From NCBI GenBank assembly GCA_013388755.1, contig JACAEQ010000087.1, positions 1-35,225 on the forward strand: 35,225 nt of DNA. Direction: 5' to 3'. Origin of the DNA: Chloroflexota bacterium (GTDB lineage Bacteria; Chloroflexota; Chloroflexia; Chloroflexales; Roseiflexaceae). Shown here piece after piece: positions 22,820-25,942 of this stretch. Each line of letters opens with the position of its first letter. Position 1 is the first letter of the stretch. Below the pieces are notes generated by a model. It was not told the DNA's origin. It saw only the letters and a list, made by a program, of their open reading frames with translations, and searched no databases. Made by a program: the position numbers and the translations under genes.

Positions 22820-23812
22820 CTATGGTGCGCGCCGGTACGCATCGATCGCCTGGCGTAGCGTGGCCGATCGTAAACGCTGAATGACGCCGGCCGGGTACCC
22901 GGCCATCTTGGCGGCGTCACCCACGAACCGGATAATCGGGATGAGGGCTGCGGCGCGCAGCATGCTGGCCGCATCCAGTGCGGGCGCGCGCCGGCGCAAC
23001 CGCCAGAGCGGCGTCCATGTGTATGCCAGCGCACCGGCGGCCAGGAGACCTGGCATCCAGGGATGGCGTCGGGCCAGACGCGCGATGAGTATGACGGTGG
23101 CATAGGTCGCATAACGGATCGCGTGGCGCGTGCCCCACAGCCCGGCCACACCGTCGCCTCGCGCGTAGAGGTAATACTGGCGGGCGAAAGCGGTAAGTGA
23201 CGAGCGTGGCCGAAAGAGGACCAGCGCCTCGGGTGCGAAGGCGAAGCGTAGCCCGGCCTGCTTGAGCGCCAGGTCGAACAACACGTCTTCGCAGTGGCTG
23301 GCCCATTCGGGATAGCCGCCGACCAGTTCCCACGCCTCGCGGCGGAAGGCGCACGATTTGCCGAAGGGCAAAAAGCGCGCCGGGTCGATCTCCTGCGCCT
23401 CGCGATAATTGGTGGCGCCAAGCGTGAGCTCGAAGAGGCTGCGTGGCGCGGCGCGAAAAAAACCGCCGACAATATCGGCCTCGCCACGCCTGATGGGCGC
23501 GGTGACCTGCTCTAGCCAGCGCCGGTCGAGCGTCAGCCCTGCATCGGTGCAGGCGATAATTGCGCCCGATGCGTGGCGTATGGCGTTGTTGCGCCCTGAG
23601 GCGATGTTGAATCCGCCCTGGACCAGGCGCAACGGAGCGCCCGCCGCTATGTAGCCGCGCACGATGTGCGGTGTCGCATCACGGCTCTGGCAATCGTTGA
23701 CGATGATTTCGTCGGGTGGTAGCGACTGGGCCAGCATCGAGTCGATCAGCGCGGCGATGTTGTCGGCCTCATCACGTACGGTGCAGACCAGCGAGATGCG
23801 GATATCACTCAT
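22820..23812 (-). CDS. Family 2 glycosyltransferase
   Basis: This 330-residue protein has a GT-A fold start (ISLVCTVRDEADNIAALIDSML, residues 6-27, cited as a region) and the nucleotide-sugar segment DEIIVNDCQSRDAT. A DxD-like metal site occurs in IACTDAGL. The acceptor/base region is CEDVLFDLALKQAG (near residue 185), followed by the QxxRW-type stretch RQYYLYARGDG. Hydrophobic helices in the last 100 residues suggest membrane association. It probably transfers a sugar to a lipid or surface polysaccharide; donor and acceptor are unknown. It converges with the PSD-like gene (50-bp gap) and diverges from the DsbA-like lipoprotein gene. Confidence 0.9.
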   Translation of the reverse strand: MSDIRISLVCTVRDEADNIAALIDSMLAQSLPPDEIIVNDCQSRDATPHIVRGYIAAGAPLRLVQGGFNIASGRNNAIRHASGAIIACTDAGLTLDRRWLEQVTAPIRRGEADIVGGFFRAAPRSLFELTLGATNYREAQEIDPARFLPFGKSCAFRREAWELVGGYPEWASHCEDVLFDLALKQAGLRFAFAPEALVLFRPRSSLTAFARQYYLYARGDGVAGLWGTRHAIRYATYATVILIARLARRHPWMPGLLAAGALAYTWTPLWRLRRRAPALDAASMLRAAALIPIIRFVGDAAKMAGYPAGVIQRLRSATLRQAIDAYRRAP

Positions 23813-23902
23813 AGCGTTCTATGGTTGTGCCAGGACCTCCGTCCAGGGCGACGAAGAATCCAGAAAGAGAACCAGTGCCGTATAATACCAGGAAACGAAG
23901 CG

Positions 23903-24664
23903 ATGCCAGGTAAATCATTGCGACACGTTCTGTTGATACTGGTCATAGGGGCATTCGTGGCCGCGTGCGGCAACGCTCCCTCCGCATCGGCACCGTCGGC
24001 GTCTCCGACGGCTGTATCGCCTGCCGCCACGCAGGCGCCGGCGATTGCATCGCCGGTAGCGACAACGGCGCCGGCGATTGCATCGCCGGTAGCGACGGCG
24101 GCAGCGACACCTGCGCCAACCGCCGTGGCGACGCTGGAGCGTGGCCGTACACCGGAGGGGTATCACTACCTGGGAAGCGCCGATGCGCCGATCACATTAC
24201 AGGAGTACTCCGATTTCTTCTGAACGGCGTGCGCGTTCCACGTGGTGGAAATCGAACCGAAGATCATAGAGGCCTATGTTGCTACCGGGCAGGTGCGACT
24301 CGTCTACCGGCATTTGCTGCAGATTGGCGAACGATCATTGCGCGCGGCTGAGGCCTCGGAGTGCGCCGGCGATCAGGGTAAGTTCTGGGAAATGCGCGAG
24401 GCGATCTACACTAATCAGGATGCGCTCTATGTGACGGGCGACGTTGCTGCGGCGCTGACCTACCTGGCGCAGCAGGTCGGCGTGGATGTCGCCGCATATA
24501 GCGCCTGTATGCAGACCGAAACGCACCGCTTCCGGATCGAGTCCGATTTTCGCGTTGCTCAGGAAAGCGGGATTCGCTCACGACCGGTGTTTGAGATCAA
24601 TGGCCAGCGCCTGGTCGGTGTGCGTTCGTTCGAAGAGTTTCAACGCCTGATTGAGGCGCGGTAG
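23903..24664 (+). CDS. DsbA-like lipoprotein with in-frame TGA at the active-site cysteine (selenoprotein candidate or nonsense mutant)
   Basis: One frame runs from ATG 23903 to TAG 24662-24664, interrupted only by TGA at 24221-24223 (codon 107). The signal peptide ends in a lipobox (FVAAC, Cys about 22). A Pro/Ala/Ser/Thr linker with a tandem repeat follows, then a thioredoxin-fold (DsbA family) domain: ITLQEYSDFF-TGA-TACAFHVVEIEPK, helices with GDQGKFWEMREAIY, the cis-Pro region RSRPVFEING, and final FEEFQRLIEA. TGA stands exactly where the first Cys of CxxC belongs; C110 is the second. Readthrough would give a UxxC selenoprotein of 253 residues. Otherwise it is a pseudogene from TGC to TGA, or a sequencing error. 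The ribosome site AGGAAA is 7 bases from the ATG, and TATAAT is at 23881-23886. TGA ends ordinary genes in this window. Confidence 0.8.
24034..24096 (+). repeat. Two-copy 33-bp in-frame tandem repeat in the lipoprotein linker
   Basis: A 30-base stretch starting GGCGCCGGCGATTGCATCGC occurs at 24034-24063 and again identically at 24067-24096, with a 33-bp period. It encodes the repeated linker segment APAIASPVAT between the lipidated cysteine and the thioredoxin-fold domain. Copy number may vary between strains by slippage without breaking the frame. Confidence 0.8.
24221..24250 (+). promoter_or_regulatory. Candidate bacterial SECIS hairpin after the in-frame TGA
   Basis: TTCCAC (24236-24241) pairs perfectly with GTGGAA (24245-24250) around the loop GTG. 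The loop begins 18 bases after the TGA and has G at its first position. This meets the published loose description of bacterial SECIS elements: apical loop 16-37 bases after UGA with a G near the loop start. The stem is short, and it encodes Phe-His-Val-Val-Glu, which may be constrained for protein reasons, so chance is a real alternative. Confidence 0.4.
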
Positions 24665-24665
24665 G

Positions 24666-24703
24666 GCGCGGTAGGAACGGTGCGCGAACCATCCCTGCCG
24701 CGC
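24666..24703. terminator. Hairpin between the convergent DsbA-like and Fur genes
   Basis: GCGCGGTAGG (24666-24675) pairs with CCTGCCGCGC (24694-24703), 10 pairs with one G-T wobble and an 18-base loop. On the plus strand it is followed by TTT. Its place between two converging genes, starting right after the DsbA-like stop, supports a terminator role. Confidence 0.5.
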
Positions 24704-24710
24704 TTTGCGC

Positions 24711-25160
24711 TTACGCAGCGCGCTGGCAGACCTGGCACAGACCGTAGACTTCCAGCCAGTGCCCTTCGATCTTGAAATTGAGCCGGCGCGCCAGTCCACC
24801 AAGGATTGTCTCGAGATCACAACCTTCGAATGCAATCACCGTGCCGCAGTTACGGCACACCATGTGATGCTGGTGTCCCTGTTCAACTGGAACGTAGGCA
24901 TGTTCATTGGCGACATGCGTCTCTTTCGAAGCGCTCCAGTGAACCCGCGAAAGCCAGCCGTCTTCCACGAGCATGTCGACGGTGCGATAGATGGTGGCGC
25001 GCCCGATGGGGCCGGACTCGCCGCCAAGATCGCGGAACAACTGCTCGGCGCTGAATGGCTGGGTGTACTGTGTGATCCGCTCAAGGATGGCGCGCCGCGG
25101 GGAGGTCACCCGGTGTCCGTGTGCGCTCAGGTCTTTGAGCACGTTATCAGCCCACGACAT
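24711..25160 (-). CDS. Fur-family metalloregulator
   Basis: This 149-residue protein has the Fur N-terminal winged helix (HGHRVTSPRRAILERI; then GRATIYRTVDMLVEDGWL). The C-terminal dimerisation/metal region carries EQGHQHHMVCRNCG, and a second cysteine pair CQVC close to the C-terminus forms the structural zinc site with CRNC. The metal sensed (Fe, Zn, Mn) or peroxide sensing cannot be fixed from sequence. The ATG at 25160 is preceded by GGAGG with 8-base spacing and is preferred over the in-frame GTG at 25175 that precedes that site. Targets may include its own AT-rich promoter. Confidence 0.93.
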   Translation of the reverse strand: MSWADNVLKDLSAHGHRVTSPRRAILERITQYTQPFSAEQLFRDLGGESGPIGRATIYRTVDMLVEDGWLSRVHWSASKETHVANEHAYVPVEQGHQHHMVCRNCGTVIAFEGCDLETILGGLARRLNFKIEGHWLEVYGLCQVCQRAA

Positions 25161-25315: not shown

Positions 25316-25942
25316 ATGTTGAAACGTGCTCTCATTCTTCCCGGGCTTGTACTTGTCGCTGGCGTGCTTGCGATGATTGTCATCCTGGCAATGCCGGCGG
25401 CTGGCCCGGTTCCAGTGGCGGCGCAGCAGGCATACCCGGCGCCGGCAACACCTCCACCACCTGCGTACCCTGCGCCGGCGACAGCATTGCCAGCGGCAAC
25501 GCCAGTGTCGCCAGTTCGTGCAACTGCCACGCCCGCGCCGGCGACGGCAACAAAAGATGCAACGGCGACCGCTGTTCCAGCGATGCCAACCAGGACGCCG
25601 GTGCCGACGCGTGTTCCGCCAACCGCGGCACAGGTAGCGCAAGCGGTGGTACCGACGCCAGCTTCGTCGGATGCACTCATCTGTGTGCCCGGGCAGACAA
25701 TGATCGTCACTGGCGTTGCGCCGCCGCGTGCGCCACTCTTACTCCTGTTCGGTACTCGCGTGGTTGGTGGCGGTAGCGCAACAGCGTCGGGTGATTTTGC
25801 CCTGCCGCTCACGTTCGGTGTCGAGCGTGCCGGGGTGCATACCATCACCGTGCAGGTGCGTGGCGCCAGGCAGGTGGTCCAGACATTGACCTGTGAGATG
25901 CCGCCGACGACACCGACGCCCGTGGTGCGCCGTACGCGCTAA
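25316..25942 (+). CDS. Exported protein with Pro/Ala/Thr-rich stalk, function unknown
   Basis: This 208-residue protein starts with a hydrophobic signal or anchor segment (residues 5-28, ALILPGLVLVAGVLAMIV). A long low-complexity stalk follows (about 38-118), rich in Ala, Pro and Thr with YPAPAT and TPVPT type repeats. The compact C-terminal part (about 120-200) begins DALICVPGQTMIVTG and has beta-sheet character (GVHTITVQVRGARQ), possibly an Ig-like or carbohydrate-binding fold. Two cysteines (LICVPG and TLTCEMP) could form a disulfide bracketing that domain. GGAAG lies 7 bases before the ATG. It diverges from the Fur gene. No family is recognised. Confidence 0.75.
   Translation: MLKRALILPGLVLVAGVLAMIVILAMPAAGPVPVAAQQAYPAPATPPPPAYPAPATALPAATPVSPVRATATPAPATATKDATATAVPAMPTRTPVPTRVPPTAAQVAQAVVPTPASSDALICVPGQTMIVTGVAPPRAPLLLLFGTRVVGGGSATASGDFALPLTFGVERAGVHTITVQVRGARQVVQTLTCEMPPTTPTPVVRRTR

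Follow-up and report, generated by a model that had tools for sequence, protein, structure and literature searches.

Selenocysteine or stop at a catalytic codon

In a genome of the Roseiflexaceae (Chloroflexota), a gene for a thioredoxin-fold protein with a predicted lipid anchor carries a TGA inside its reading frame, at the codon where DsbA-like enzymes have the first cysteine of their redox motif. The question that this locus raises is whether the TGA ends a broken gene, stems from an error in the assembly, or is read as selenocysteine (Sec). The answer has practical consequences, since standard gene calling splits the gene at the TGA and loses the catalytic residue, and a correct call alters the annotation. 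The window referred to below is the whole stretch of DNA that was analysed, 35,225 nucleotides of contig JACAEQ010000087.1.

The reading frame and the encoded protein

A first-pass annotation, made from the letters of the window, had described a frame from 23903 to 24664 broken by a single TGA, and this description is accurate: the frame comprises 253 codons and a terminal TAG, with one internal stop, the TGA at 24221-24223 (Table 1). Its placement of the TGA at codon 107 is equally correct; the context is SDFF-U-T-A-C, where the motif U107-T-A-C110 corresponds to a CxxC with the first cysteine replaced. The downstream part had been described as 140 intact codons with a cis-proline. Intactness and Pro228 stand, but the count does not: 146 sense codons follow the TGA, and 140 amino acids is the length of a mechanical open reading frame that begins at a GTG (24242-24664).

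The N-terminal part holds a hydrophobic segment ending in VAAC (codons 19-22), a lipobox-like motif spotted by eye; the hydrophobic segment and its cysteine are common to the homologues in the alignment. A low-complexity linker rich in alanine, proline and threonine separates the predicted lipobox region from the thioredoxin-fold domain. The best Pfam fit of the read-through protein is Thioredoxin_4 (PF13462, 92.4 bits), and DSBA is a marginal match (26.3 bits, cut-off 25.6). Over the domain, confidence in the AlphaFold model is high, with block means of 91-98 from residue 81 onward, and membership in the thioredoxin fold is supported by the PF13462 match, a modelled helix from residue 108, matches to structures in the PDB and the invariant Pro228. 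A scan of 23780-24760 for promoters and terminators gave nothing useful on the forward strand.

Table 1. Features of the locus and of the Sec-containing selD of the same genome (window coordinates unless a contig is given)
Feature	Position	Strand	Remarks
Thioredoxin-fold (seleno)lipoprotein gene, complete	23903..24664	+	253 aa including predicted Sec107; ATG start, TAG stop
AGGA, candidate ribosome-binding site	23890..23893	+	9 nt 5' of the ATG; judged from sequence
Lipobox-like Cys22 (VAAC)	23966..23968	+	End of hydrophobic signal segment; predicted lipid anchor, judged by eye
TGA, predicted Sec107	24221..24223	+	Opens the UxxC redox motif; 28 class I genes have TGA at this codon, the others TGC/TGT
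Cys110	24230..24232	+	Resolving Cys of UxxC; invariant in protein alignment
Candidate bacterial SECIS hairpin within the coding sequence	24236..24250	+	Stem 24236-24241/24245-24250, loop GTG 24242-24244; covariation in 28 sequences
Cys154	24362..24364	+	Invariant column of protein alignment
Cys202	24506..24508	+	Invariant column of protein alignment
Pro228, predicted cis-Pro of the thioredoxin fold	24584..24586	+	Invariant in alignment; fold matches DsbA/BdbD structures
selD, predicted Sec-containing	L151 (G000:C97:576-1505)		Basis: in-frame TGA

The protein alignment behind these invariant positions covers 28 relatives, and in it the frame 3' of the TGA is conserved up to the C terminus; Cys154 and Cys202 may form a second disulfide pair. 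Such conservation bears on the view that the gene is a pseudogene, stopped by a recent nonsense mutation and not yet decayed downstream. One substitution does turn TGC into TGA. However, the frame beyond the TGA remains intact with the family-invariant C110, C154, C202 and P228, the TGA itself is conserved between families, and the covarying stem described below reflects selection on the hairpin. On this conservation and covariation the pseudogene was rejected, as an explanation with practically no probability left to it.

Codon 107 among the homologues and the selenocysteine machinery

Homologous loci were drawn from 40 related genomes, from 300 genomes of the phylum and from a scan of public genome contigs. 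A TGA at the identical codon is found in 28 distinct class I genes, the window gene included, and the remaining members have TGC or TGT there, with frames open on both sides. The comparison of homologues proposed in the first-pass annotation thus returned only TGA or cysteine codons at this position, followed by open and undegraded frames.

The same annotation had called for a search of the source genome for selA, selB, selC and selD. In this assembly (5.08 Mb in 145 contigs) all four were found above their cut-offs: selA with 556.2 bits, selB with 335.8 bits, selD with 371.7 bits, and a tRNA-Sec with anticodon TCA and 71.5 bits, against a cut-off of 47. The selD gene has one in-frame TGA of its own, at the SelD active site (GCAG-U-ASK), and therefore serves as an internal control for the use of UGA as Sec in this genome. 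A possible hairpin with a CGGGC loop, read by eye, lies 16 nt downstream of the selD TGA.

Across genomes, the codon and the machinery go together. Among the 40 relatives, selA or tRNA-Sec was detected in every genome with a class I TGA gene (16 of 16), and the same holds for all 13 further scanned genomes with TGA members. Both selA and tRNA-Sec are missing from the six Roseiflexus genomes, whose family gene has TGC, and a further genome (G240) has only cysteine and neither component. In several draft genomes with TGA genes just selA or just tRNA-Sec exceeded the cut-off (G005, G010, G011, G014, G016 and G039), several of these assemblies being incomplete or fragmented; G023 likewise has one component above the cut-off, with a partial selA. 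The presence of the machinery does not force the use of Sec, since G032, G038, G232, G256 and G300 possess it and have cysteine in the family gene. In G264, a genome of one contig, the gene has cysteine, a tRNA-Sec lies above the cut-off and selA gave no match, a combination that may reflect a Sec system in the course of decay.

This distribution also bears on a general reassignment of the stop codon, or near-cognate read-through of UGA, in which neither SelB nor a SECIS element would take part. The extension of the frame past the UGA would be expected from it as well. Nevertheless, the neighbouring genes are readable with translation table 11 and need no general recoding, the TGA falls precisely on the codon of the catalytic cysteine, genomes free of the machinery have cysteine there, and the SECIS covaries, all of which makes reassignment or read-through highly improbable.

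The hairpin downstream of the TGA

The hairpin that had been noticed at first reading, with its loop 18 nt past the TGA and a G as first loop base, was recovered at 24236-24250. Its stem pairs TTCCAC (24236-24241) with GTGGAA (24245-24250), beginning 12 nt past the TGA, and the family consensus loop NGUNN corresponds to 24241-24245. Bacterial SECIS elements have been modelled with a loop of 3-9 nt, a stem of 4-16 bp, a spacing of 16-37 nt, a minimum free energy of at most -7.5 and a G within the first two loop positions (PMC13188914). The window hairpin falls within these bounds, with a loop of 3 nt, a stem of 6 bp, G first, a spacing of 18 nt and -10.3 kcal/mol for a 45-nt fold. The bare 21-nt stem-loop reaches just -5.8 kcal/mol, so that the fold needs flanking pairs to come within the energy limit.

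Folding of the single sequence was rejected as proof of a SECIS. The fold of 24221-24265 is no better than that of its own shuffles (z 0.37), and a bSECIS-like hairpin with at least 6 pairs follows 234 of the 1159 TGA trinucleotides of the window (about 20%). Taken alone, the hairpin is within chance for a GC-rich window; it stands out from chance because the TGA falls exactly on the catalytic codon and because of the comparative evidence.

All 28 class I TGA genes have a hairpin at the same distance from the TGA, with an NGUNN loop on a 5-6 bp stem, and the NGU is present in 28 of 28. The stems differ in sequence and keep their pairing, as in TTCCAC/GTGGAA, TTCCAT/ATGGAA, CCGTCA/TGACGG and CCGCTA/TAGCGG. 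Counted from the loop, pairs 2-5 are never broken, and for each of them between 3 and 12 sequences have changes on both sides; among the 27 distinct sequences, five stem pairs show changes on both sides. Paired cells amount to 93.8% in these sequences, against 76.4% in shuffles. The covariation score of 0.500 compares with 0.209 for shuffled rows and at most 0.179 for slid controls; because the rows are related, these figures are not independent probabilities. RNAalifold recovers the same stem unaided. Synonymous codon shuffles, which keep the amino acids, give 4.43 +/- 0.15 pairs, compared with 5.64 observed. Judged from this comparison, the candidate SECIS hairpin is under selection, since four pairs with changes on both sides would hardly arise in another way.

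Orthologues in Roseiflexus and the direction of change

The gene order rimM, psd, glycosyltransferase (GT2), family gene, Fur, hypothetical protein and NUDIX is the same in the window and in Roseiflexus, which identifies the Roseiflexus genes as positional orthologues of the window gene. The hypothetical protein of this neighbourhood (25316-25942 in the window) is rich in alanine and proline and has no Pfam match. Relatives from several families encode it 3' of the family gene, including some that lack Fur and the glycosyltransferase there.

An unrooted tree, calculated with the site itself masked, places the window gene as sister to the Roseiflexus cysteine clade (support 94); both belong to a larger clade (support 98) in which 28 genes have Sec and 12 have Cys. 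A single base, TGC versus TGA, separates the window gene from its closest relatives. The Roseiflexus genes retain a remnant of the stem, with 3 of the 6 pairs and the protein sequence FHVEE, and the window gene has 5 of the 6 consensus pairs and the loop-closing C-G pair, with FHVVE.

These relatives provide the grounds on which a sequencing or assembly error could be argued, with TGC as the true codon: the two codons are one base apart, and in the tree the five orthologues nearest to the window gene carry TGC. Against it, 28 genes have the TGA at this position, and almost all of them come from independent assemblies; the hairpin, which only a Sec codon needs, is lost in the Roseiflexus Cys genes and kept in the window; and selA, selB, selC and selD are all retained in the genome. 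The conservation of the TGA and the covariation of the hairpin led to the rejection of an error, the chance of which appears very slight.

With the TGA taken as a genuine Sec codon, the simplest reading of the clade is that Sec would be the older state, replaced by cysteine several times, and that in Roseiflexus this replacement would have taken place together with the loss of the machinery. Among the syntenic orthologues, Sec would then persist along with the machinery and Cys would accompany its loss, as in Roseiflexus, where the SECIS stem would have decayed after the switch. What an exported disulfide-exchange protein gains and loses by using Sec is directly testable through this contrast at one syntenic position. 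A separate orthologue (L168:1771-1845) has TGC in a genome with the machinery and still keeps 5 of the 6 SECIS stem pairs, which looks like a recent switch from Sec to Cys.

Relation to known selenoproteins

The protein matches NCBIfam NF041057, the 'Rcas_1661 family thioredoxin-like (seleno)lipoprotein', over residues 12-252 with 279.7 bits (cut-off 190). The first-pass annotation did not take into account that the family already had a name. The shared traits are the lipoprotein nature (predicted for the window gene), the thioredoxin fold, UxxC in the Sec members and CxxC in the Roseiflexus members. There is no essential difference between this family and the window gene, which by sequence is a well-supported additional member of an already named selenoprotein family, one more with Sec and sister to the Roseiflexus members with Cys. 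A 2026 review includes NF041057 among the UxxC selenoproteins, under the name 'DsbG-like protein' (PMC13188914). A literature search for a study of the protein in Roseiflexus, the Roseiflexaceae or the Chloroflexota found none, NF041057 being named in one review.

DsbA-like UxxC selenoproteins have been on record since the Sargasso Sea survey of 2005 (PMC1088965), with further reports since (PMC1794560; PMC5029168). These bacterial proteins likewise have Sec in place of the first cysteine of CxxC and a SECIS in the coding region. They are filed under DSBA (COG2761/PF01323), whereas the window protein fits Thioredoxin_4 (PF13462) best and has a lipobox-like cysteine. Among solved structures, the best matches are TsdA/DsbA from Corynebacterium diphtheriae (4pwo, 7unn), alpha-DsbA1 from Wolbachia (3f4r) and BdbD from Bacillus (3eu3), with E-values of about 1e-18 to 1e-11 by sequence and of about 5e-13 to 3e-10 by Foldseek. 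They have the same fold and active-site layout, but their motif is CxxC, as the aligned cysteines indicate, as opposed to the UxxC of the window protein.

Proposed mechanism

The machinery, the TGA/Cys pattern of the homologues, the covariation of the hairpin and the conserved downstream frame all support the UxxC selenoprotein first suggested for this gene. Its product is almost certainly a thiol-disulfide oxidoreductase of the DsbA/BdbD type, predicted to be lipid-anchored and extracytoplasmic, with Sec as the nucleophilic first residue of the active site. From strong comparative evidence we infer that UGA is decoded by SelB via the hairpin, and from the sequence that the protein is exported and lipid-anchored. 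When ribosomes arrive at UGA 107, the downstream hairpin of the mRNA would bind SelB, which would bring Sec-tRNA-Sec, the product of SelA using selenophosphate from SelD. Translation would then run on to the TAG ending at 24664, and the protein would be exported and subsequently lipidated at Cys22. Outside the cytoplasm, Sec107 and Cys110 would form a selenenylsulfide, exchanging with thiols or disulfides of other exported proteins, a role proposed because of the DsbA/BdbD fold; the redox direction could be that of an oxidase, a reductase or an isomerase.

Further selenocysteine-containing relatives

A second group of Sec paralogues, from the same families, has the motif UPFC, UPYC or UPGC followed by FVRET or a related sequence (L135-L150 and L178, e.g. 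L136:2216-2269 and L145:1129-1182). The three members that were scanned against NF041057 scored 155-173 bits, under the cut-off of 190, and the group may be less familiar than that family. It has a covarying hairpin of its own, with the same NGU loop about 4 nt farther from the TGA. A cysteine paralogue of the source genome (L019, G000:C30:10546-11235) is placed among the Sec genes of this group in the tree.

Elsewhere in the phylum, two loci (L077:2866-4308 and L175, the latter on the minus strand with its TGA at oriented position 994) hold a UPYC and a CPFC DsbA-like domain in one frame, about 195 amino acids apart. The loop of their post-TGA hairpin lacks an early G, unlike the other groups, and the genome that is the source of L175 (G210) has selA and tRNA-Sec.

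A tentative suggestion, rather unlikely as it stands, is that this order of the Chloroflexota holds a wider and partly uncatalogued set of Sec-containing DsbA-like lipoproteins beyond NF041057, which would include the second group, with the UPYC and CPFC frames elsewhere in the phylum. If true, the window gene would be one piece of an extracytoplasmic, Sec-based system of disulfide exchange. Two tandem, TGA-containing copies of the family gene also lie side by side in each of two genomes, at G278:C13:1424-2981 and G320:C300:5885-7425.
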